From an uncultured Verrucomicrobiota bacterium (GTDB taxonomy: Bacteria; Verrucomicrobiota; Kiritimatiellia; RFP12; UBA1067), in assembly GCA_945613785.1 (NCBI GenBank), contig CALZAJ010000003.1, forward strand, positions 1 to 34,994: a stretch of 34,994 nt of DNA, in the 5' to 3' direction. Under the pieces are notes generated by a model. The model did no database searches and was not told the origin of the DNA. It was given only the letters and a program-made list of their open reading frames with translations. The position numbers were made by a program, and so were the translations under genes. Below, in pieces: positions 1 to 34,994 of the stretch; position 1 is the stretch's first letter; every line of letters starts with the position of its first letter.

Positions 1-289
1 CGCCCGCCTTCTGCGCGTTGGCGACGACATGCAGCGCAAGCGTCGTCTTGCCGGAAGATTCCTGTCCATAACATTCCACAACGCGTCCGCGGGGAAGCCC
101 CCCTACACCAAGCGCCATGTCGAGCGAAAGCGCGCCCGTTGAGATGACAGGGATATCCTCAATTTCACGGTCGCCGAGACGCATAATCGCCATCTCGCCG
201 AATTCCTTGCGAATCTGGCTCATCACCGCATCCAGAGCCGTGTTGCCCGTATTGGCCGTCTTCTTCACCACCTCTTTCTTCTCTGCCAT
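1..289 (-). CDS. recA: Recombinase RecA, N-terminal part (truncated by left window edge)
   Basis: Own translation of the minus strand from ATG at 289: [96 protein letters not shown]. RecA N-terminus with Walker [10 protein letters not shown]. Not in the ORF track because it has no stop inside the window. Confidence 0.97.
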
Positions 290-313
290 AACTCTCCTTG
301 CTTTCTTTTTAAG

Positions 314-3300
314 CTATTCTGTCGCATTTCCATCAACACCTTTGACCGACCAGAAACGCTGCTCGTCGGTGGAACTGGCGTCTTGGAACGAAAATTCTCC
401 GTCGGCGGTCAAAACTTGGTTGGAAACCGCGATCCAGCTGTTGGTGGACTGGAGGGTCGTGCCGGCATAGAGCGTGTAAGAGCATCCCTTCACGCCCGGT
501 GAAAGCCGAAGCAAGTACGTATGTTCGTCGATGCGCTCGATGGCCGTGAAATTAAACGGGCGGCAGGATGGATTGTCCCCGGGATCGACGGCGGCCGCGG
601 TGATTGTGAAATCCGCCGGCGTAAATTCGATTGTATAGTTTCCGCCCAGCACTTTAAGGCTGCCCTGCAAGATGTCGTAGGTTCCAGGAGCCTCGCCACT
701 TTCGCGCACGAGAACGCCGTCAAGCACTTGACTGGCGCTATCCTCGCCCACAAGCCCATATACGCCGTAGGTGAAAACCGGGTCGTTCTCACCCTCTTTT
801 TTCGATGCCTCGAACGCTACGACCCTGATTGTCTTTTTGGCGATTTTCCACGGAATCGATTTCTCGTTATAAGTGCCGTCGGTCCAAACGAAACCCTTGC
901 GCAAAACCGCCCGCGCCACATAGTCGCCGGCATTCGTCGCCACACCCGAATACAACGCGTAGCCGATACCTTCTTTCACACCAATCTGGGCAGCGGCGTT
1001 GTATACGAACTCGTCTGCGGCGACCGTCGGCGGCGACACCGCGATATCCGCGCCGCCTTCAAGGGCGCCGTATACCGCATCGCCACGCTCATAGAGGCCG
1101 TCGGGATCCACCGCCGAGCTCCATACAAGAAGCGCATCGGTTGCATTGGTTACGACCATGCCGTAGTCGCCGGTGAGATCGTTGGTGAAACGCCGCGCAC
1201 CTTCCATGATTCGCTCTTGTGGTGCGGAAGCGAAATATTGCGCATCGACATCGCCAATAAAGTCGGGATCCGCGCCCAGACCCTCAAGAAAGCCGATACC
1301 GCCAGTAAGGTCACCAGCAAGATAAAGCCTGCTCTCAAGATCGTGCACGACCATATTGCTCGCTTCACCGGAAAGGCGGCTATTGCCGAGAATAGCAATA
1401 TCACCTTGCACATAGACACGAGACTTGTTGCCGATAAAGATCCCGCCGGCGCGGTAAGCACGGCAGCCGCGAATTTCACCGCCATTGAGATACGCCTGCG
1501 AATTATCCAGCAAAACTCCGCCGCCACAGCCAGTACCCTCTTTCTCGTTAATATAGTCATTCGCGCAATTCCTGATCGCCGCGCCAGGGTTCATCGTGAA
1601 AACGCCCTTCCACACCACTACGCCACCGCAGGCGCGACCGCCTTGGCCGGAGACATTCGAAATCACGCTGCCGTTTTCCAGCGTCAGCTGCCCTCCTTCA
1701 ACCTTCACCATCGCCGTCGTTCCGCCGTATTCGCCAGAAAGGACGATATTCGTAAGCGCAAGCGCGTTGTTCTCTGGAACCCTAATCGTCGCGTCCGCCC
1801 GACGGAAGAGCGTATGTCCGCCGCCGTCGAAAACAATCGCAGCGTTGTTGGTTACTGCAAAGTCGGTACCAAAATCGACATCGTGCAAAAGCCGCACCGT
1901 CGCACCGTTGGTCGCAACCGCAAAACCCTCGGCAACGGTCAGATAGAATTTTTCCTCCGTGCCGCCGGGGGCAAGCACCCCGACTTCTGCGACGGCTTCC
2001 GTCACCGATTGCGGGCCTTCTGGCGCCTTTGCCCATTGCAGATAATTCCCCTTCTCCGAAATCTGCGCGACCAGCGGCGACTTGTCGCCAATCCCGGCCT
2101 GATTGTAGAAGAATACGCCCAGCGATGACTTGGCATCGTCGCTGGAGCAGGTGAAGCTGCCAAACACTCCACCTTCCTTGTTGCCGGCCGGATAGCCGAT
2201 GCTGAATTCTACACCGACATACCCCGTAGCTGCGCCGGTGAGCACGAGTTTGGCTTTTGTGCCGTTAAGATAAATGTTGCTTTCTTGCTTATTGTAAATG
2301 TTGCCGTAAACCGACGCCAGGCCGGAAAGCTGAACTTCCGCACCGCTGGCCACAAAGACCCCGGCCGCATAATATTCCGACTGACAATCATAGATGCGCC
2401 CGCCTGTCATGATCAGCGCGGAGCCTGGGCTGAACAGACACACCCCGGGACTGTTGTTTACCAATGTAGTCTTGCTTTCTCTACATATATTTTTCGTAAT
2501 CTCAGAGCCAGGAAGCATTTCCACGCGGCCTGAATTCTTGACAAACACCGTAGAACTCTTATTACACTCGACATTACGAATTATGGCACCGTCGCCAAGA
2601 ACGAGACTTCCGCCATCGACGGTGATGAAATGGTTGGTTCGCGTGCCGTTATCCGCTCCAGCGAGGGCAAGATTGGCAATTGAAAGATTCTTGTCGGCAC
2701 CGACGGTAAATGCGCCGTTCTTGCCGATGGTGATTTGCCGACAGTCGGTGGAGGAAGAGAGCGTAAGCGGTCCGGCAAGATTCACGGCATTGGTAAGTTC
2801 GCAATCCCGATAGACTACGATGTTGCCAGTGTTTTGCGCATGCGCAAAACACTGGCGCAATGTGCTGTAGTAATGATTGATGCCGTCGCTGTCGGCGTAG
2901 GAAGCAACCGCCAAATCGGGTTGGGTCTCGCCCGAGCCGTCCCAAACAAGAATCGTTCCATTCGGACTATCGACCGCCGAGCCGACATGTTCGTCGTTGT
3001 AGCGATTCGCGAGATAATTAGCCGTGCCGTTCAATTCGGCGACCGAAACCGACGCCACGCCAAACTGCGCCCCGTCGCCAGAAGTCGCAAGGCAATTAAC
3101 CTCAAGACGCTCGGTCAACGGACCGCACAACTCCAACCCGGTTGGCGAATACAGCAAGACCGACCCAAAGCCGGCAATGTCCTTCAAAGCCGCCGTGGCC
3201 GTTCCGAGCACGCAGAGCGACTCCGTTCCGTCGCCTTCGACGGAGACGATGCGCACATGATCGAACAACACCCTGACAGAATCACCTTCAAGGCTGATGC

Positions 3301-5557
3301 GCCCCGTAGCAGGGCGAAGAATATCGCGCATTTCGCCTGCCTCTGACGATACGATACGGCAGCTTTTATCTATGGTCAGTTTCGCCGGAATGCGAACTTT
3401 GCCCATCAACTCGATCGTTTCGCCGCTTTGCACTTCTTCGACGGCTCTTTTGAGCGACTGGAAGCCAAGATTACGCTCGCGAATGCGCACGAGCGCATCG
3501 GCCGGGCCGACAGTCGCCGGATCAAAGGCGCCGCGGATATACAAAGCCGCCGCCCCGCCTTCGAGGTAATCGTAAAGGACGCTGCGGCAATCGACAATCA
3601 CCACATAAGTTCCCGGTTCGGCCTCGGCAATGCGCACGGATTCAATATTGTTCTTAACGTCGGGTTCATCGCCTCCATTGCCCAGCCAAAACGCCTCGCG
3701 GCCATCATCGCGGCGCTCAACCACAAGATCAAGATCGTTAACCAGTGCCTTCTCCGCCGAAGGTTCGCCAGGATGGTCCACCCAGACAAGTTGCACCTCA
3801 AGCGGCGCAGCATTGGTGGTGCGCACCGCCCACGCAAACTCCGCCCGGTCAGCAAATTGGATTCGGTCTATCAACTTGACGGCTCGGTTGTTCGGATAGA
3901 GCGTCTCTTCCAAATTTACCCTTCCCCAGCCCTGCGCAAAATCAGGAACCGTATCGTTCGCCGATGCCCCGCCGGTGATTACAGCTTTCATCAGCGCGGC
4001 AGTGGGACGCTTGTTCTCGTCTTCAGAAAATTCCGGCTGGTTCAACAACCATTCGCGCACCAACGCAACCGAGCCGGCTACCAACGGGCAAGCCATGGAA
4101 GTGCCCGTGTCGTAGGCGTAAAACTCATTGTAGTTGCCATAACTATAATCAACGCCCCATGCTCTCGTGGAAAGAACGCCTGTTCCGGGCGCGGCAATGT
4201 CTGGCTTGATGCGCCCGTCCTTGCAAGGTCCGCGGCTCGAATATTCGGCGGTAACAACCGGATTGCCGTTTTGTAAAAGGCCTTGCGGCGGAACTATGCG
4301 CGAATTCTGCGTAGCCCCCACGGCAAGCACATTCTTAGCTGCGGCAGGGGAGCCGATAGTGCTCGCTGCGCTTCCTTCGTTGCCAGCCGAAATCACCGGA
4401 AGAAAATCTGGATGCTCCCAGACGTATTTATCGAATTCTTTGCATTCTGCCGTATAAGTTCCCGGGGTTGAGGTGCCCCAGCTGGCGGAATGAATGTAGG
4501 CGGAATATGGCTGATCCCAGTACACAACATCGTCTGGATCGGGCGTAGGACGAAGCAGCTCGTTAATATCAGCTGGCGTATACACTCCACGCCCGCCATC
4601 TGAACAAAACCAGACGAACAACTTTGCCCCCCAGGCCGTGCCGCGAATCTCCTTCGCCGACATGCTGCCGTCGCCCACAATAGATCCGGCCGTATGCGTG
4701 CCGTGCCCGATGTTGTCGTTGGTGATACAATTCTTCGACACCTTGACGCCGATTACCTGGTCGAACAAATCAGGATGCCGAATCTGCCTGGCGTCCTCAT
4801 CAAAGGAAATGCCCGAATCGGAAGTTGTAATTATCTGTCCGGCACCGGAAAGCCCATGCAAATTCCATACCGCACGAACGTTCATCGCAACTGGATCCAC
4901 CGCGATATTGTTGGTGAATTCGGGCCGGACAAACGACTCCATCCACCGCACCTCGCCGTGCAACGACAATGCCCCGATAAGTGCAGCTGGAATACGGACT
5001 TTGAAACTGTCTGGGGCTAATAGACAGCCACTGATTTTCTCGCCGCCGTTTCCAAGTACATACAAGAGCATCCGCTCGCGGTCTTCGGGTGAAGTCGTAA
5101 CTACCGTGACATCAACCGTCTTCGCCCCTGCAGCCACAAGTTCCGAAAGCCCGGAATCGATTTTTCGCGAAGGGACGAACTCTTCTATCGGCAAGAAGCG
5201 CCCGTCGCGCGAAAGTCGATCGCACTGTCCGCTATCGGCTTCGACCAGCAGTTTGCGCGCAGACTGCACAGCCACGACCCGCGCGCCTGTGGCTTCAACC
5301 GCCAGACGCATCGGCTTGTCGAACGGCGTCTCGGAAGCGAGCACGTACGGCAGCGTTCCGCGCACGGTCGGCGTCTGCTTCGGCTCCCCGCCCACGGCGG
5401 AAGACACTCTCGGCGTGACCTCTGTAATCGACCGCGTAGCCCCCGCCGAGAGATCAGGAGACGACGCTGCGGACTCCACCTGGCGTCCGTCATTCCAAAT
5501 CCAAAGCCCCAATAGCGCGAGCAGACAAACTACCGCGCAGATCAAACACTTTCTCAT
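314..5557 (-). CDS. Secreted subtilisin-like (S8) serine protease with C-terminal beta-helix-like repeats and MBG-like domain
   Basis: 1747 aa; N-terminal hydrophobic signal (MRKCLICAVVCLLALLGLWIW); catalytic Asp (TTSDSGISFDED), His (GHGTHTAGS) and Ser (GTSMACPLVAGS) motifs; long Gly/Asn-rich repeat region; MBG-like segment (TIRVVAFEASKKEGENDPVFTYGVYGLVGED...). Confidence 0.92.
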   Translation of the reverse strand: MRKCLICAVVCLLALLGLWIWNDGRQVESAASSPDLSAGATRSITEVTPRVSSAVGGEPKQTPTVRGTLPYVLASETPFDKPMRLAVEATGARVVAVQSARKLLVEADSGQCDRLSRDGRFLPIEEFVPSRKIDSGLSELVAAGAKTVDVTVVTTSPEDRERMLLYVLGNGGEKISGCLLAPDSFKVRIPAALIGALSLHGEVRWMESFVRPEFTNNIAVDPVAMNVRAVWNLHGLSGAGQIITTSDSGISFDEDARQIRHPDLFDQVIGVKVSKNCITNDNIGHGTHTAGSIVGDGSMSAKEIRGTAWGAKLFVWFCSDGGRGVYTPADINELLRPTPDPDDVVYWDQPYSAYIHSASWGTSTPGTYTAECKEFDKYVWEHPDFLPVISAGNEGSAASTIGSPAAAKNVLAVGATQNSRIVPPQGLLQNGNPVVTAEYSSRGPCKDGRIKPDIAAPGTGVLSTRAWGVDYSYGNYNEFYAYDTGTSMACPLVAGSVALVREWLLNQPEFSEDENKRPTAALMKAVITGGASANDTVPDFAQGWGRVNLEETLYPNNRAVKLIDRIQFADRAEFAWAVRTTNAAPLEVQLVWVDHPGEPSAEKALVNDLDLVVERRDDGREAFWLGNGGDEPDVKNNIESVRIAEAEPGTYVVIVDCRSVLYDYLEGGAAALYIRGAFDPATVGPADALVRIRERNLGFQSLKRAVEEVQSGETIELMGKVRIPAKLTIDKSCRIVSSEAGEMRDILRPATGRISLEGDSVRVLFDHVRIVSVEGDGTESLCVLGTATAALKDIAGFGSVLLYSPTGLELCGPLTERLEVNCLATSGDGAQFGVASVSVAELNGTANYLANRYNDEHVGSAVDSPNGTILVWDGSGETQPDLAVASYADSDGINHYYSTLRQCFAHAQNTGNIVVYRDCELTNAVNLAGPLTLSSSTDCRQITIGKNGAFTVGADKNLSIANLALAGADNGTRTNHFITVDGGSLVLGDGAIIRNVECNKSSTVFVKNSGRVEMLPGSEITKNICRESKTTLVNNSPGVCLFSPGSALIMTGGRIYDCQSEYYAAGVFVASGAEVQLSGLASVYGNIYNKQESNIYLNGTKAKLVLTGAATGYVGVEFSIGYPAGNKEGGVFGSFTCSSDDAKSSLGVFFYNQAGIGDKSPLVAQISEKGNYLQWAKAPEGPQSVTEAVAEVGVLAPGGTEEKFYLTVAEGFAVATNGATVRLLHDVDFGTDFAVTNNAAIVFDGGGHTLFRRADATIRVPENNALALTNIVLSGEYGGTTAMVKVEGGQLTLENGSVISNVSGQGGRACGGVVVWKGVFTMNPGAAIRNCANDYINEKEGTGCGGGVLLDNSQAYLNGGEIRGCRAYRAGGIFIGNKSRVYVQGDIAILGNSRLSGEASNMVVHDLESRLYLAGDLTGGIGFLEGLGADPDFIGDVDAQYFASAPQERIMEGARRFTNDLTGDYGMVVTNATDALLVWSSAVDPDGLYERGDAVYGALEGGADIAVSPPTVAADEFVYNAAAQIGVKEGIGYALYSGVATNAGDYVARAVLRKGFVWTDGTYNEKSIPWKIAKKTIRVVAFEASKKEGENDPVFTYGVYGLVGEDSASQVLDGVLVRESGEAPGTYDILQGSLKVLGGNYTIEFTPADFTITAAAVDPGDNPSCRPFNFTAIERIDEHTYLLRLSPGVKGCSYTLYAGTTLQSTNSWIAVSNQVLTADGEFSFQDASSTDEQRFWSVKGVDGNATE
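2825..2856. repeat. Perfect 32-bp palindrome
   Basis: gccagtgttttgcgcatgcgcaaaacactggc equals its own reverse complement; no spacer. Confidence 0.97.
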
Positions 5558-26137: not shown

Positions 26138-29100
26138 TTACTGTTCGATGACGACCTTGTAGAAGCCGCTCGTGCCGTTGTCCTCCGGCAGCTCGATGGC
26201 CTGAGCGTCGGCGCCGATCTTGACCGTCGCGGACTTGACCTTGCTCCAGTCGGCTTCGAGCGTGTCCTTGTGGTAGACCACACAGGTGACCTCGGTCGGG
26301 GCCGTCTCGAGCTGTCCGTAGAGACCCGTCGCGAGCTCCTTCTGTGTGCCGTCGACCTGGATGACAAGCTTGCCGTCCTCGAAGCCGATGGAGGAGATCG
26401 TGACCGAGTCGACCTCGGACTCGACCGTCAGCCTGCCGGACTCGTCGACCGAAAGCGAATTCGGATCGACGTTGAGCGCAAGCGCCGCGTCCTTCGGCGA
26501 AGAAAGCGTATAGACGACTTGCGCGCCCAGTCCATCGCCCGTGGCGCCGGCGCCAAGCTTCACGGCGAGGTTGTTCGCCAGCGATTTCATAACCGCGGCA
26601 TCGCCGGGGAGAGTGGCATCGATCTTGTCCGTGCCGTTGAGAAGCTTGCCGCCGTTGGTGGCAACCTCCCAGGCGTCGGGCAGATTGTTGCCGTTGACAT
26701 CCGTATCTTCAATGTAGAGTAGCGCCGTTTCCGAGCTCGTCCCCGTATCGCCCACGACTATAGCCGCGGGAGCATAAGGCGCGTCTGAAGATTTCTCGCG
26801 CGAGCAGACATAGCCCCACGATTCGAAGCTGTCGCGCACGTACGCATTCCCGTAATTCTTCGAATCGAGCCAGGCCATGATGTAGTATTTGCCGCGCGGC
26901 AGACCGTAGACGAGCGCATTGGCAATATGCGCAACTTTCGCGGATGTCACCGAGGAGGTGTTGGTTACCACCGTGCGCGAGACGGGCGTGCCGCTGAAGT
27001 CCGGCGTGCCGTACGCAGCGACGCGGACCACCGCATCGTCGAGCGCGGCCTTGGGACCGAAGTATTTGACCGCCACCGGCGCGGAGCCGCTGACGTAACC
27101 GTTCGCGGGCGCGCTCATACGGAAGACCGGGCCTTCGGACGACCAGAAGTCGCTCTTGAACTTCGAGTTGTACATCGTCACGCGCCATGAATAGTTCTTG
27201 TCGTTCTCAAGCGTTTCGCCGACATACGCTTCGGATTCGAAGGTGTAGGTCTTGTCGGACGCCATCGGCGGCGTGCGGCGGATGCCCGAATCCCAGATGG
27301 TCTTCGCGCCATCGAGAATCTGCACGCGGAAGGCGGAATACGAATTCACGCCGTTCATGGTCCACTTAAACGTCGGATGCGAAGCGTTGACGATCGACCC
27401 TTCCGAGCCCGGAGCGATCGCCACCGGACGCGTGCGGTTCTTTGTCGAGTCGAGGTGGCGCACCGTGGCGATCGAGAAGAGGTTGTTCGTCGTATCGGTT
27501 TCGATAGTGCCGTTGCCCATTACGATCCGGTAAGTGACGTTGGTCGGATCGCCGCAATACTCCTTGACATATCCGTTTTTGACCACCTCTTGTTCAAAGT
27601 ATTCCCAATCGAGATCGAAGACGTTATCGCCCAGAACATCGCCCTCGAAGAAGAACGAGCGCTGATCAAGTTCGATCCACTTGTCGACGATCACGCGGTT
27701 GGCGACGCCGACCTGGTCGACGCCCCACCCATTAATGAGCGTGCGGATAACGCGAATTCGTTCGTACTTGCCGCCAGAAGGCTCGCCGGGGAGGAGGTTG
27801 CGGTTGTCGCCGTCTTCCGTTCCGTAAAGGACGAAGCGGTCGGACAGGCCGGTCTTGATATCCGCGCGGGTGATAACCGGGCTGACATCGGTAAGTTCGA
27901 TTTCGCCCTTCGCCGAATACCAACCCACATTGATTCCGCGAACAAAGCCCAAGGGCTCGCCAGGAGTGTAGGTGCCGGAGTTGTCGAGATCGATAAAGGC
28001 AACAATCGAGTTGAAGCCTTCCTTCACATAGCCGCTTTCGGGCTTGGCGAAGACAAGCGTCTGCTTGCCGCTCGCAAGGCTTTCAACTGGCGTTGCCTTG
28101 TAGACGGCGTCGGGCACTACGAGATCGGCGCTGGTGTAGGTTTGGATTACCACCGGCGCGTAGGCGGCGACATTCTGGGCTTCGCCGGCTGTGCCGGAGT
28201 TCGTCTCCCCATCGGCATTGCCACCGGTGGTCAGCACCTGCTGGCCGTTGTAATAGAACGTGAGATAGATTGTCGGCTCGGGGCGTCCAGCGATGCCGCT
28301 GGTGACAACCGTGTTCGTATCGTTCGTAGAAGCGGCCGCGAAGTCGCGGTAGCGGCGCTCGGCGAAATTGGTCCAGCCGTCGTCGTCGTTGTCGGTAAGC
28401 TGATCCCAGGCGAACCGGTTCGAGAACTCGGTGCCGACTTCGTCTTCCCAATCGTCCTCAATCATATCGTTGTCAGTGAAGATCTCACCGGCATAGAGCG
28501 AGCCGATCTGGTAGAAGTAATCGAGGTTGAACGGATCGACCGAGAAGGCGTTGTCGGGGTCGAACTTGACGCCGAGGTCAAACACCTCCGAAAGGAGATA
28601 TTCAACATAGTTGCAAAGCCCGTCGCCGTCTTGATCGTCCATCGCGCCGGCGCCCTTGATGTGATACTTGAAGGCCATGGCGTCGCCAATGCCATCGCTG
28701 CCGGTGTCGCCGGCGAACGGATCGGTCGGATGGTAGCCGCCGTCGTATTCCTGATACATCGTAAGCGTGTCGGCGTCGGCATCGAAGCTGCGGTCATCGC
28801 GATTCCACGGCGAGTGCGGCGCGGCGGCGAGGCGGCAATAGGCGGGTGCGCCCTTGTCGTCGTTGCCGAACATCGTGTAGAGTTCCCAGCCGTCCAGCAC
28901 GCCGTCGGCATCCTGATCGATCTGCTTGTAGCCCGTCACAATCTCCTTCTTGTTCGTGATCGCTCCGACCGCGAGGAGGTAATCCGCCACGTAGGTCTTG
29001 TCCTTCTTCGTGAAGTTCTTGGAGTTGACCCACTCCGTGCGCGGAATCCAGCCGTTCGCCGTGTTGGAGTTGAAGCCGAACTTCGAGTAGACCTGGGCGT

Positions 29101-32100
29101 GGACGAACACGATGTTCTGCCAGCCGTAGCCCGCGTAGCCGTTGTCCTTGAAGCTGCTGTCGGCCGTGTTGATGACCTTGAAGCCGGAGCCGGCCTGGAA
29201 GGTCACGTTGGTACCGATACCGAAGAGCTTCTGCTTCTTCTTGCCGTAGTAGTAGGTGGACATCAGCGAGGTGATGTTCTCGGCCGGCTCGCCGTTGCGA
29301 ATCGGGCATTCGGTCGGGGAGAGCTTCGTATCCTCGGAGAGGTAGTCGCTCACCCAGTACCAGGCCGCGTCGTTCTTGTTCGTGCCGGTGCCGATGTAGA
29401 CGAGGTAACCCTTGGCGGTGGCGTAAGCCATCACGTCGCGCTCCAGCCATTCGCCGCCGTTGTCGAGAACCGGATCTTCATCGTCCGTATCCGGGACGTC
29501 GTCGCCGTCGGAGTCGGGCTCTTCATCGTCCGTATCCTTCGCGCCTTCAAGCGGATCCTCGATCTCGCCGAACTCAGGAGCGACCGGGTTGAAGATGCCG
29601 TACTTCTCGTAGAAGTCTTCGTCGCGGTCATAGATGCCGTTGTCGTTCCAGTCGGTATCCTGGAGGTAGACCGTCGCGGTCTCGCTCGGGTTGAGCTTGG
29701 CGAGCAGCGCGCGCGGCTCGAAGCCGTACTCGGTCTCACCGAGACGCGTCACATAACCCCAGGCGTCGTACGGACGGCGAATCTCATTGTTCGCACGGCC
29801 GTCGTCGGGATTCTTGACCGCCCAGGCGGCAACATAGTAGGAGCCATTCTCACGGAGGCCGGAGATCGTATTCGTCACGCCGGTCGTCTGGCCCGTGATG
29901 ATCTTCACGGGATTGACGAGGTCCTCGCTCTCGTAGACCGCAACGGTGATGCCGTCGAGGGAGTCGAGAATCGGATGAATGACCTGGACATCGAGCTTGC
30001 CGTTGAAGTTCTTCGCCGCGTTGACGCTGAACTCCGCGATCTCGCTCCACTCGGTCTCGTCGTCGACGACCGTGTCAGGACCGCCGAACTTGTCGTTACC
30101 GAGGAGGATGCGGACCGTGTGGGTGCCAACGTCGAGGTTGGAGCCCATGAGCTCCTCGAGGTCGAGCGTCTTACGGCCACGCGCAACGCCCGTGAGCGGG
30201 AAGCCGCCCTCGTCGCCGAACTCAGCGCCGTCAACCTCGATCCAGAAGCGGGTATAGATGAAGCCATCCGTCGGGATCGTGAAGGAGATCATCGTGTCGC
30301 CGACGAGCGAATCCGCCGTGCCGATCACGTTGTTGGCGCGGTCACGCTTGAGCGAGTAGTGGATCGTGAACTCCTCGTTGACCTGCTGGTCAACCGTCTG
30401 GAGGGTGATCTCACCGGTCTCCTCGTTCACGACCTGGACCGTATAGTGGTTGAGGTTGGTCACGCTGATCGTGTTCTGGTTGTCATTGAGCGCACCCGTC
30501 TCACCGTCGACGATGCGCGGCACCGTCAGGCGGACGATCTCATACGTGACGGACTCGAGGGTTGTCGGATCGGACGCAAGGTCGAAGTCTTCCACCAGCA
30601 TCTTGTCGAGGCCGATGAACTCGTAGGCCTTGTTATCCGGATCTTCCGGATCTTCCGTGAGCATCCATTCCTCAGGATACACGCAGTCGCGGTTGACGTT
30701 GTTCCAGTACTTGCGGAGGAGCACGCCCTTCGGGGTGATTTCCTTGCCGTTCTTCTTCGTGCGGACGAAGCCGATGAGCTGGTAGACCTCGTCATCCTTG
30801 ACAAGCGGGATCACCGGGAAGGCCTCGTTCTTGTCACCGAGCTGGATGGAGATGTCGCCACCCTTCCAGCCAACCGTGGTCTCGGTCGTGCCGTAGGTCA
30901 TCTCATAGGAGAACTCGACCGCCTGCGCATCGGCGGGAGCACCCGCCTCAGCGCCGCCCTCGGCCTCGCCGACGACGTACGCGCGGAAGAGCGCCGCACC
31001 CTGCTTGAGCGAACCGGCCGTAGGCTCGGCGAGCGTCACCTGGGCGATGCCGCCGCTGAACTCGGCAGTGACGTTCCACGTCGCCTGGAGTTCCGTGCCG
31101 TTCTCCGGGAAGGTCGGATTGACCTGGAAGGCCTCGACGATCACCGCGAGGGTGTCGTTGCCCGCATAGCGGAGCGTGAGGTTCATCGTCGGCATGATCT
31201 TGCCGCTGAAGTCGTGTTCGACCATCCAGACTTCCGTTGTGACCGCGCCGTCATCGGAGACGACCTCAGTCGCGTTGGAGGTGGTGTTGGCGTAGCCGTA
31301 ACGCGCCGCGGACCAGTAATCCCAGCCCGTCGCCATCGAGGCCGTGCCGGCGCCCTGGAGGGCGTCCATGCCGAGGGCCGCGCGGGCTTCGATCTCGATG
31401 AACTCAGCCGCGTTGAAGCGCTTGCCGAGGTAGGTCTTGACGCCACGGTCCGTGAAGCTACGGAAGTAGTCCGGCGTCACGCCGTCGGAGAACGCCTTCG
31501 TCAGGTCGATGTCGGCGAGCGAGGTCGGATCGAGGTAGTAGCCGAGCATTTCGCCCAGCGCGTGGACCTGATCGAGATCGTCGTCAGCATAGTACTTGTC
31601 CGGCGTCACGCCGAAGTTCTTCGCCACCGCGTCGGTGAGGTAGTCGAATTCCTCGGGATCGCCCGTCAGGAGTTCGCTCTTGAAGAGCTCGTCGCGGACG
31701 GTATACTTGTTCCACGGATCGGTCGGCTGCAGGCCACGATTGTATTCCTTGTAGTTCTCAAGCGTGTCGCCGTCGTTGTCGCTGGCGCGATCGCCGTATT
31801 TCCACGGGCTGATGGCGGTGCCGTTCGTGAACGTCGTCGCGTTCATCTCGTTCGGACCGAACATCACATAGAGCTCCCAGCCGTCGCTGACGCCGTCCTC
31901 GTCGAGGTCGGTGTTGTACGGCTTGAGCGTGTAGTTCTTCCAGAGGTTCTTGATGTTGACTTCCTTCTCGTCGCAGATGCCGAGCGACTCGAGGTAGCGG
32001 ACGACGAGGTACTTGTCGAGCGCCGTGAACGGCTTGGTGTTCACCGCGTCAGGACCGGCCACTGCCGTGAGCGGGTTGAAGCCGAACACCGCATAGACCT

Positions 32101-34994
32101 GCGCATGGACGTAGGCGACCTGCTCGGTCGAGACCGCCGCGACACGGTTCTCCGTGCCAGCTTCGGCCGTCAGCTCGACACGGCCACCACGGCCGACGTA
32201 CTTGACAGCCTTGCCGTTCTCGATCACCGGATACTCGTACATGGAGTAGAGCTCGAGGCCCTCGGCCGAGTCGCCGACGAACGGAATCTCCGAACCCTCG
32301 GCGAGGATGTACTTGTAGGCGGTCGCGCCTTCCGTCGTGTTGCGGACGGTGATGACGGTCGCATTGGTGACCGCGAAGGCCATCACGTCGCCGTCAGCCG
32401 CTTCGTCGGCATCCGGGAAGTTCGGGTCGAGGTCGGCATAGAGCGCTTCCCAGCCGTCGGGCATGCCGTCGTTGTCGGAATCCTGCTTGTCCTTGTCGGT
32501 ACCGAACGAATCCTCGTCGGTGTCGCTGAGACCGTCGTCATCGGAGTCGGTTCCGAGCGCAGCTTGCTGCTGGCCTTCCTCGACGCTGAAGAACTTCGGT
32601 TCGCTGCAGTCCGGAATCTCGTTCTTGTTGGTGTCGCAGTCTTCGATGTAGATTGTGACGGACGGATAGGCCATCATCTCGTCGGTGACCGTGACGTCCG
32701 CCGGCGTGTAGATCGAGACCGCATCGGTGCCGACGTAGTTGGCGTAGCCCCACGGCTCCCAATTGTCGCGCACACCGTTGTTGTTCAAATCGGCGTAGGC
32801 GCGCAGGTAGTAATCGCCCGGCGCAATGCCGCGCAAGGCGACATTGGTCGTCGTCAAATCGTAGTAGTCGCTGATGGACGCGGTGTCGGCAACGCGCATG
32901 CGCGCAGCGGGGGCGCCGGTGAAGTCGGCGTTCTCAAACGCTTCGACCACGATCAGGTTCGTGAGGTCGGACGTACGGGCCGTACCGAAGTAGCGGACGG
33001 ACGCGGCGACATTGCCGTAGCCGGTCGGGATCATCGGATGACGGTTGACGTTGGCGACGTCCATCTGGAACTCGCCCCACTTGCTCCACACCGCGTCATC
33101 GTCGGACTCGTTGTACTTCGCGTTGAGGAGCGCGACACGCCAGAAGTAGTTGGTGTTGTCGTTGAAGATCGCCGAACCGTTCGTCGAGACGCAGCAGCCC
33201 GCGTAGAGGTCAGGCGTGACCGCGTAGACCGAGGTGCCCGCCGTGAGACCCGTGCGGCCCGGCAGCACCGTGACGCCGGAATCGTAGACCATCTCGGTCA
33301 TGTTCGTCGAGGTCCAGACCTGGAGGCGGTAGGCCTTCATCGTCTCGTCGTTGTTGACGAAGCGGAAGGTCGGACGCGCCGAGTAGACCGGCTGGGCGTC
33401 GATCGGTTCGCGGAGCGTCGGGATGGCGCGCTGCGTGCCGAAGGTGTTGACGAAGCTGGAGATGACGAGGTTCGAGGTCGAACCGTCAGGCATCGTGACG
33501 ACCTGCTCGATGTCGTAGCCGACGCTGATCAGCTCGCTGTCGAGGTCCTTCAGGCCAAGCTTCTTGGCGTCCTTGACGAGCCACTTCCAGTCAAGGTCGG
33601 GCTGGGCGATCGTCAGGATGTCGGCTTCCGTGATGTACGGACGGTCATCGAGGACCACCGTGCGCGCCGGAATCGAGCGCATCTGGATCGTCTTGCCTTC
33701 GATCTTGTTCTGGCCGTTGATCTCCTTGCGGCGGACGGTCACCTTGATCGTCTGCTGCGCGACAGGATCCGCCGCGGCTTCACCGCCCTCGGCGCCCGCG
33801 TTGGCGTCGGCGACGGCTTCGATCTCCGTGCGCGCGATCACGCTCGAGGAATCCTTGACCTCGATGACGAGTTCCGGCGTCTTGTGCCAGCCGATCGTCA
33901 CGTTCTGGAGCATGCCATAGGGCTCGCCCTCGGTGAACTGACCGTTGCCGTCGAGGTCGATGAACGCCTCAACCGTGTTGACGCCCTCGCGGACGCGGCC
34001 CTTGGTCGCTTCGCTGACCCAGATGGCCTGCGGCCAGTTCTCGCCGATGCGATAGGTCCAGTCGACGCGGAAGACACAGCCGTCGAGCGACTCGCCGCTA
34101 CCGGCGACCACCAGACCGAGGTCGATGGAGTACTCGCCCGTGCGGTAGTCAATCTTACCGATCAGCGTACGGGACGCGCTGTTGGTCGGCGTGTAGTAGA
34201 TCTCGCCATAGTGGCCGTCGGTATCCGAGACCATCGTCGCGAACTGCTCCCACTCAATCGCCGAATCGACGATTTCGATGTTAGGATTGTAGAGCAGCGC
34301 CTCAAGGTACTCTTCGTACGTACCGGTACGAACTCCGTAGTTTTGATCCTCAGGATCCGTCCAACGATAGTTCTGGTTGGAGGTCATCTTCGTCTTGGAG
34401 AAGATGCCGCTGCCAGGAACGACGCAGCCCGGGTTGAGGAAGCCATGGAGCTTCGCCTCGCCGAAGAAGCCGCCGAGCACGCGCGTGCCGGTCTGGACCT
34501 CGCCAGCGGAGCCCTCGACCATGAAGGTCGCGTCGACACGCGGCGAGGTGCCGGTGTAGGTGCGGACCACGAGGCCGGCGCCGGAGATGTCCTGCACGCC
34601 ATGATAGGTGATGCGGACGCCGATTGCCGGGGTCGGATAGCAGAGGACCTGGAGGTTGCCGTCGAGGAAGCGGTCGATGAGGTCGGCCGCGTAGCTGCCG
34701 CGCCAGGTGAACGCACGGCACTCGGCGAAGTTGGACCAGCCATCCTCGTCCTTGTCGTCGTTCGGATCGTAGACGCCGAGCGAGCTGTAGTTGACGTTGT
34801 ACTGCTTCTCCCACCAGTCTTCCATGAAGTCATGGTCGGTCGCAATCTCGCCGAGGTACTCGTTCGGGCTCAGGTTGGCCGCAATGTCCGCGACGTTCGT
34901 CGGACCGGAGAGGAAGTAATCCACGACCTGCTGGTCATAGCCGGTGCGCGCGAGCAGCGGGTTGAGGAACGGGAAGCCGTTCACCATCCCGTAC
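26138..34994 (-). CDS. Giant modular cell-surface/secreted protein with TSP3/EF-hand-like Ca-binding motifs (5' end beyond right window edge)
   Basis: >2,949 aa; no signal peptide at the first in-window Met (34987), and the frame stays open to 34994. Motifs DSDDDGLSDTDEDSFGTDKDKQDSDNDGMPDGWEALY, DTDDEEPDSDGDDVPDTDDEDP, AFIDLDGNGQFTEGEP; internal duplications. Confidence 0.85.
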   Translation of the reverse strand, partial: YGMVNGFPFLNPLLARTGYDQQVVDYFLSGPTNVADIAANLSPNEYLGEIATDHDFMEDWWEKQYNVNYSSLGVYDPNDDKDEDGWSNFAECRAFTWRGSYAADLIDRFLDGNLQVLCYPTPAIGVRITYHGVQDISGAGLVVRTYTGTSPRVDATFMVEGSAGEVQTGTRVLGGFFGEAKLHGFLNPGCVVPGSGIFSKTKMTSNQNYRWTDPEDQNYGVRTGTYEEYLEALLYNPNIEIVDSAIEWEQFATMVSDTDGHYGEIYYTPTNSASRTLIGKIDYRTGEYSIDLGLVVAGSGESLDGCVFRVDWTYRIGENWPQAIWVSEATKGRVREGVNTVEAFIDLDGNGQFTEGEPYGMLQNVTIGWHKTPELVIEVKDSSSVIARTEIEAVADANAGAEGGEAAADPVAQQTIKVTVRRKEINGQNKIEGKTIQMRSIPARTVVLDDRPYITEADILTIAQPDLDWKWLVKDAKKLGLKDLDSELISVGYDIEQVVTMPDGSTSNLVISSFVNTFGTQRAIPTLREPIDAQPVYSARPTFRFVNNDETMKAYRLQVWTSTNMTEMVYDSGVTVLPGRTGLTAGTSVYAVTPDLYAGCCVSTNGSAIFNDNTNYFWRVALLNAKYNESDDDAVWSKWGEFQMDVANVNRHPMIPTGYGNVAASVRYFGTARTSDLTNLIVVEAFENADFTGAPAARMRVADTASISDYYDLTTTNVALRGIAPGDYYLRAYADLNNNGVRDNWEPWGYANYVGTDAVSIYTPADVTVTDEMMAYPSVTIYIEDCDTNKNEIPDCSEPKFFSVEEGQQQAALGTDSDDDGLSDTDEDSFGTDKDKQDSDNDGMPDGWEALYADLDPNFPDADEAADGDVMAFAVTNATVITVRNTTEGATAYKYILAEGSEIPFVGDSAEGLELYSMYEYPVIENGKAVKYVGRGGRVELTAEAGTENRVAAVSTEQVAYVHAQVYAVFGFNPLTAVAGPDAVNTKPFTALDKYLVVRYLESLGICDEKEVNIKNLWKNYTLKPYNTDLDEDGVSDGWELYVMFGPNEMNATTFTNGTAISPWKYGDRASDNDGDTLENYKEYNRGLQPTDPWNKYTVRDELFKSELLTGDPEEFDYLTDAVAKNFGVTPDKYYADDDLDQVHALGEMLGYYLDPTSLADIDLTKAFSDGVTPDYFRSFTDRGVKTYLGKRFNAAEFIEIEARAALGMDALQGAGTASMATGWDYWSAARYGYANTTSNATEVVSDDGAVTTEVWMVEHDFSGKIMPTMNLTLRYAGNDTLAVIVEAFQVNPTFPENGTELQATWNVTAEFSGGIAQVTLAEPTAGSLKQGAALFRAYVVGEAEGGAEAGAPADAQAVEFSYEMTYGTTETTVGWKGGDISIQLGDKNEAFPVIPLVKDDEVYQLIGFVRTKKNGKEITPKGVLLRKYWNNVNRDCVYPEEWMLTEDPEDPDNKAYEFIGLDKMLVEDFDLASDPTTLESVTYEIVRLTVPRIVDGETGALNDNQNTISVTNLNHYTVQVVNEETGEITLQTVDQQVNEEFTIHYSLKRDRANNVIGTADSLVGDTMISFTIPTDGFIYTRFWIEVDGAEFGDEGGFPLTGVARGRKTLDLEELMGSNLDVGTHTVRILLGNDKFGGPDTVVDDETEWSEIAEFSVNAAKNFNGKLDVQVIHPILDSLDGITVAVYESEDLVNPVKIITGQTTGVTNTISGLRENGSYYVAAWAVKNPDDGRANNEIRRPYDAWGYVTRLGETEYGFEPRALLAKLNPSETATVYLQDTDWNDNGIYDRDEDFYEKYGIFNPVAPEFGEIEDPLEGAKDTDDEEPDSDGDDVPDTDDEDPVLDNGGEWLERDVMAYATAKGYLVYIGTGTNKNDAAWYWVSDYLSEDTKLSPTECPIRNGEPAENITSLMSTYYYGKKKQKLFGIGTNVTFQAGSGFKVINTADSSFKDNGYAGYGWQNIVFVHAQVYSKFGFNSNTANGWIPRTEWVNSKNFTKKDKTYVADYLLAVGAITNKKEIVTGYKQIDQDADGVLDGWELYTMFGNDDKGAPAYCRLAAAPHSPWNRDDRSFDADADTLTMYQEYDGGYHPTDPFAGDTGSDGIGDAMAFKYHIKGAGAMDDQDGDGLCNYVEYLLSEVFDLGVKFDPDNAFSVDPFNLDYFYQIGSLYAGEIFTDNDMIEDDWEDEVGTEFSNRFAWDQLTDNDDDGWTNFAERRYRDFAAASTNDTNTVVTSGIAGRPEPTIYLTFYYNGQQVLTTGGNADGETNSGTAGEAQNVAAYAPVVIQTYTSADLVVPDAVYKATPVESLASGKQTLVFAKPESGYVKEGFNSIVAFIDLDNSGTYTPGEPLGFVRGINVGWYSAKGEIELTDVSPVITRADIKTGLSDRFVLYGTEDGDNRNLLPGEPSGGKYERIRVIRTLINGWGVDQVGVANRVIVDKWIELDQRSFFFEGDVLGDNVFDLDWEYFEQEVVKNGYVKEYCGDPTNVTYRIVMGNGTIETDTTNNLFSIATVRHLDSTKNRTRPVAIAPGSEGSIVNASHPTFKWTMNGVNSYSAFRVQILDGAKTIWDSGIRRTPPMASDKTYTFESEAYVGETLENDKNYSWRVTMYNSKFKSDFWSSEGPVFRMSAPANGYVSGSAPVAVKYFGPKAALDDAVVRVAAYGTPDFSGTPVSRTVVTNTSSVTSAKVAHIANALVYGLPRGKYYIMAWLDSKNYGNAYVRDSFESWGYVCSREKSSDAPYAPAAIVVGDTGTSSETALLYIEDTDVNGNNLPDAWEVATNGGKLLNGTDKIDATLPGDAAVMKSLANNLAVKLGAGATGDGLGAQVVYTLSSPKDAALALNVDPNSLSVDESGRLTVESEVDSVTISSIGFEDGKLVIQVDGTQKELATGLYGQLETAPTEVTCVVYHKDTLEADWSKVKSATVKIGADAQAIELPEDNGTSGFYKVVIEQ

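Follow-up and report, generated by a model that had tools for sequence, protein, structure and literature searches.

A perfect 32-bp palindrome in an S8 protease gene of an uncultured Verrucomicrobiota bacterium, probably a template-switch scar

The S8 (subtilisin-family) protease gene of an uncultured Verrucomicrobiota bacterium carries a perfect 32-bp palindrome without a spacer, which is best explained as a genuine, non-mobile mutational scar. We consider it probable, at about 60%, that the scar arose when replication switched templates at an imperfect palindrome and copied one arm onto the other, and that it has no dedicated function. The palindrome lies in the window (the whole 34,994-nt stretch of DNA that was analyzed), which is contig C3 of a 1.76-Mb assembly of 258 contigs that is 71.5% complete.

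Sequence and rarity of the palindrome

In the protease, the catalytic domain Peptidase_S8 (PF00082) spans residues 239-545 (E = 8e-41), whereas the MBG_2 domain (PF18676) spans residues 1578-1651 (E = 1.7e-13). The palindrome is held by codons 901-912 (RQCFAHAQNTGN), well downstream of the catalytic domain, in a region of the protein that is proposed, as part of the best explanation, to be tolerant. On the minus strand of the window, a 2949-aa open frame (26138-34987) nearly reaches the contig end, and segments of it resemble, by eye, dockerin-like calcium-binding repeats with DxDxDG motifs.

Table 1. Positions of the palindrome, its parts and its host gene in the window
Feature	Position	Strand	Basis
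S8 (subtilisin-family) protease gene, 1747 aa, with C-terminal MBG_2 domain	314..5557	-	domain matches
Perfect spacerless 32-bp palindrome GCCAGTGTTTTGCGCATGCGCAAAACACTGGC	2825..2856	.	arm comparison; single copy in genome
5' arm (gene orientation), codons RQCFA and first bases of H	2841..2856	-	family-deviation test
3' arm (gene orientation), codons AQNTG and end of H	2825..2840	-	family-deviation test
Central core TGCGCATGCGCA, alternating pyrimidine/purine	2835..2846	.	sequence

The palindrome, first described in an earlier note on this DNA, is real in the sequence. The two arms of 16 nt form 16/16 pairs (100% complementary) with a spacer of 0, and the alternation of purines and pyrimidines in the core can be read directly from the letters. 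The in-frame coding was also confirmed: the minus strand reads CGC CAG TGT TTT GCG CAT GCG CAA AAC ACT GGC AAC, corresponding to RQCFAHAQNTGN. In this reading frame, first codon positions pair with each other across the palindrome axis, and second positions pair with third ones. As a perfect inverted repeat without a spacer, the segment 2825-2856 has the form of a quasipalindrome template-switch product.

By base composition, palindromes with arms of at least 16 bp are expected 1.4e-5 times per window, or ~7e-4 times when scaled to the 1.76-Mb genome; these figures apply per window and per genome, and the scan-wide chance of one such palindrome is larger, because the first-stage scan covered an unstated number of windows and genomes. 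The second-longest perfect palindrome in the window has only 14 bp. In a 634-kb portion of the same genome, the numbers of palindromes with arms 5-9 bp long are close to those expected from composition, and the largest arm after those of the 32-bp palindrome measures 11 bp, which makes this palindrome a clear outlier. The earlier claim that it is very unlikely to occur by chance in the window is thus upheld.

For the given peptide, just one choice for the 11 codons involved yields the palindrome; its probability is ~1e-5 under the codon usage of the neighboring genes, in which the required codons ACT (7%), TTT (19%) and CAA (17%) are uncommon. The codon usage of the protease gene itself is laxer and gives ~1e-4 (a hand product of frequencies), which makes the codon argument weaker than the former value.

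Chance would require that point substitutions and synonymous codon choice completed a palindrome in the partly self-complementary F-A-x-A-Q-N codons, with neither a mechanism nor a function. A large scan will meet such palindromes at the per-genome rate given above, and re-encoding the peptide at random with synonymous codons often gives arms of 5-6 bp, with arms of 12 seen as well. In addition, two distant homologues with the same motif have an inverted repeat with 6-bp arms on the same codon centre, at a frequency about as chance expects. However, this origin appears unlikely in view of the low probability under the neighboring codon usage, and of the concentration of unusual residues within the palindrome, which chance codon choice does not predict.

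Copy number and comparison with homologues

Searches of the genome, including the half-site search proposed earlier, revealed no second copy of the palindrome with up to three mismatches and no second half-site with up to two mismatches. The palindrome is absent from 60 congeneric genomes, and the exact palindrome is absent from viral contigs. Phage and plasmid records gave only partial chance matches with E values of 0.7 or worse, none of which spans 80% of the palindrome. On the half-site searches and the congeners, an operator or repeat motif was rejected, and the dimeric-protein site suggested in the earlier note is not supported; on the viral contigs and the non-significant phage and plasmid matches, an origin from a phage, plasmid or virus was rejected. 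Altogether, the single copy and these absences speak against three readings, namely an operator, a palindromic mobile element and membership in a repeat family.

About 12 distant homologous modules in the congeners, sharing roughly 24-36% identity, pass through the palindrome codons. Their common pattern is YY-[ST]-x-h-x-x-h-F-A-x-x-x-N...VV...DC, where h is a hydrophobic residue. Most of them align across the palindrome site without gaps or change in length, which indicates that codons were replaced rather than inserted, and the same homologous protein continues on both flanks, so that the contig is not a long fold-back chimera. At the DNA level, no inverted repeat with arms longer than 6 bp was found at this site in the homologues, which argues that the palindrome is derived.

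These comparisons also bear on a palindromic mobile element inserted in the gene, similar to the Rickettsia palindromic element or to REP/MITE-like sequences. Such an insertion would fit the perfect palindromy in a coding region, and other palindromic repeat families are present in these genomes. Nevertheless, it is ruled out as barely credible by the single copy and the unchanged length relative to most homologues, in addition to the lack of a phage or plasmid match covering 80% of the palindrome.

A further explanation is a selected element: the palindrome might be bound by a dimeric protein, or might form an mRNA hairpin in the coding sequence through which expression or decay is tuned. The hairpin suggested in the earlier note has a strong predicted fold, with -33.5 kcal/mol (z -6.1) for an 81-nt stretch containing it and 0 of 200 shuffles as stable, and a break in the sister contig beside the site (see below) would also fit a strong inverted repeat at that place in the sister. 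By contrast, the half-site has no second occurrence in the genome, the 60 congeners lack the palindrome, the homologues have nothing comparable, and neither recurrence nor conservation hints at a use of the hairpin by the cell. The site is located mid-gene, and neither of its flanks, AACATCGTAG and GCAATGTGCT, has a T-run, which rules out an intrinsic terminator. A selected element is accordingly quite improbable. The earlier note had treated absence of the palindrome from homologues, together with absence of the half-site elsewhere, as evidence against its claim, and both were found, the former for distant homologues, as the contig of the nearest homologue ends short of the site. This pattern counts against a conserved functional site and is predicted by a recent mutational scar.

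To score the departure from the family, each residue of the protease was compared with the aligned homologues, corrected for column variability, over ~13 aligned segments of distant homologues. Residues 901-911 rank first among 143 windows of 11 residues, with a random-residue permutation p of 0.0007, and the triplet RQC (residues 901-903), in the outer half of the 5' arm, ranks first among 151 triplets. The inner residues F-A and A-N are in keeping with the family. As amino-acid comparisons with distant homologues, these ranks serve as a residue-level proxy for clustered change in one arm, and they suggest that RQC is likely the tract that was overwritten.

Proposed template switch and the sister assembly

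We propose that the palindrome grew from a weak quasi-palindrome, which the F-A-x-A-x-N codons of the module (TTT-GCN ... GCN-CAA-A) can encode. Judging from these codons in the homologues, the pre-existing seed may have been TTTTGCGC / GCGCAAAA, reaching slightly past the core. At this imperfect inverted repeat, the nascent strand would have switched template, either to itself or to the sister strand, written the reverse complement of one arm in place of the other, and then returned to the correct template. Such a quasipalindrome correction would yield a perfect 32-bp palindrome with the gene length unchanged, and would exchange several codons in a single step; most likely, CGC-CAG-TGT, encoding RQC, took the place of three ancestral codons. 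The core repeat would thereby be extended outward, with the 3' arm as the likely template and the 5' arm as the overwritten one.

The combination of an atypical RQC with family-fitting F-A and A-N is expected if a weak core was extended by copying of the 3' arm onto the 5' arm, and adjacent atypical codons in one arm are a prediction of a multinucleotide template switch. The switch and its direction are inferences, as is the lack of a function, whereas perfection, uniqueness, colinearity with the homologues and the clustering of unusual residues in the palindrome are shown directly. Generating a spacerless palindrome in this way needs a small loop or a switch between strands, which counts against the explanation. 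Among the four candidates of the earlier note, the inversion or recombination scar fared best, in the form of a template-switch overwrite; there is no sign of an insertion, the alignment of homologues across the site being mostly gap-free.

The only close relative, the MAG CALYTX01 (G058/G080), shares the 3' half of the gene with 73-99% identity in 200-bp bins. Its contig stops 24 bp short of the palindrome, and the 5' half of the gene is absent from that assembly. Within the shared portion, the 3' third of the gene (window 200-1700, compared with L176 / G080:C56) is 92-99% identical, compared to 73-86% in the middle of the gene and ~75% for the shared genome. The tract of high identity is probably a recent recombination or transfer tract.

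Of the eight inverted repeats in the two assemblies (G000 and G080) whose arms measure at least 15 bp, four are situated no more than 110 bp from a contig end, compared to 0.13 expected, although one of these is a member of a repeated family and terminators may be among them. This suggests that such inverted repeats, or their repeat families, fragment metagenome assemblies. The break of the sister contig would fit a strong inverted repeat in the sister MAG too, though it is no demonstration of one. An orthologue comparison of both sister genomes showed that three of the other inverted repeats have imperfect counterparts in the other species, which is not diagnostic because it is expected at ~75% identity.

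Both the fragmented state of the assembly and the enrichment at contig ends, together with the sister contig stopping beside the site, would also fit an artefact, in which a local template switch or graph error during assembly or amplification wrote one arm twice. The long assembly fold-back considered in the earlier note is disfavored by the flanks, which continue the same protein colinearly with the homologues in one open frame. A small local artefact is improbable too: an overwrite of 16 bp that kept both the frame and the module would have to be shared by many reads to enter the consensus.

Alternatively, the palindrome might be common to both sister species, being either kept perfect by selection as a regulatory hairpin of the protease message or repeatedly regenerated by template switching at the built-in quasi-palindrome of the module; we regard this as very doubtful.

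Inverted repeats elsewhere and in known systems

A first test on coding inverted repeats of this genome gave 7 observed against 0.75 expected for arms of at least 12 bp, an excess that is unreliable because antisense and intergenic open frames contaminated the set. With gene calls based on codon usage, this genome has 3 inverted repeats with arms of at least 13 bp against 0.6 expected. Over 1.47 Mb of coding sequence, evaluated with the same type of gene calls and synonymous-codon shuffles, 4 such repeats, including the palindrome, were observed against 0.83 expected. Long coding inverted repeats are thus at most mildly in excess in these genomes, and a strong genome-wide process was dropped, as the excess shrinks under the codon-usage gene calls. 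The case for a template switch therefore rests on the palindrome site itself.

Several other repeats were observed in these genomes. Clusters of the near-palindrome GGGGTCTGTCCCC are found in this genome (L061 1373-2293, L069 13793-14886, L074 14439-14494, L086 3418-3451 and others), and a histidine-kinase gene contains two copies of it in inverted orientation. Both sister genomes contain a REP-like family, GTACTCGGTCAGTCAACACCGC-N3/4-GCGGT[C/G]TTGAC[C/T]GACC, which is often located at contig ends (L120 11709-11755, L082 475-516, L094 about 30-70, L119, L162 and L163). A near-spacerless 33-bp palindrome, TTTGGCACAGGAGGTCAGACCTCCTGTGCCAAA, with 16-bp arms and a 1-bp spacer, is found at L092 5918-5950; it is a single copy among the loci examined and lies outside the codon-usage gene calls. 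Moreover, the perfect inverted repeat at L071 17284-17335 has arms of 22 bp separated by an 8-bp spacer and is located 105 bp from a contig end.

Template switching at quasi-palindromes is known to perfect imperfect inverted repeats in E. coli, as seen with lacZ QP reporters and the thyA hotspot (PMC7202029). The palindrome resembles these mutations (Ripley model) in being a perfect inverted repeat of the arm-copied type in a coding gene, without a mobile element. However, the E. coli mutations were caught in the act, whereas here the end product alone is seen, spacerless and 32 bp long. In Saccharomyces cerevisiae, template switching has changed 39 coding genes, with up to five neighboring amino-acid replacements (PMC8604942). 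The palindrome would share with the yeast cases multi-codon replacements concentrated in a single arm of an inverted repeat, but differs in that the yeast ancestors were reconstructed from 50 strains, whereas the contig of the only close relative here ends before the site.

Template switching was also proposed as the origin of the coding palindromes in the mitochondrial genes of Nematomorpha (PMC6649704), which are likewise perfect inverted repeats in translated genes at which assemblies break. Compared to those genes, with 110 repeats of at least 15 bp, palindromes of up to 284 bp in total and conserved residues encoded by both arms, the protease gene has one 32-bp palindrome whose arms encode atypical residues. 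In addition, perfect RNA stems can arise in one template-switch event (PMC8794818), and a single event would likewise suffice here. Those stems are functional parts of RNA genes, whereas the palindrome lies in the middle of a coding sequence and shows no sign of function. In a survey of 118,019 genomes, bacteria were enriched in inverted repeats, most of which had 4-bp spacers and lay downstream of genes (PMC13155455); a spacerless palindrome in the middle of a gene is therefore atypical.

The palindrome points to no new system, and the kind of event is already known. If the template-switch explanation is true, it provides a clean case, in an uncultured bacterium, of one copying slip that replaced several adjacent codons while writing a perfect palindrome. 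Such events generate clusters of amino-acid changes that could be misread as positive selection, and metagenome assemblies may be fragmented by the resulting hairpins.
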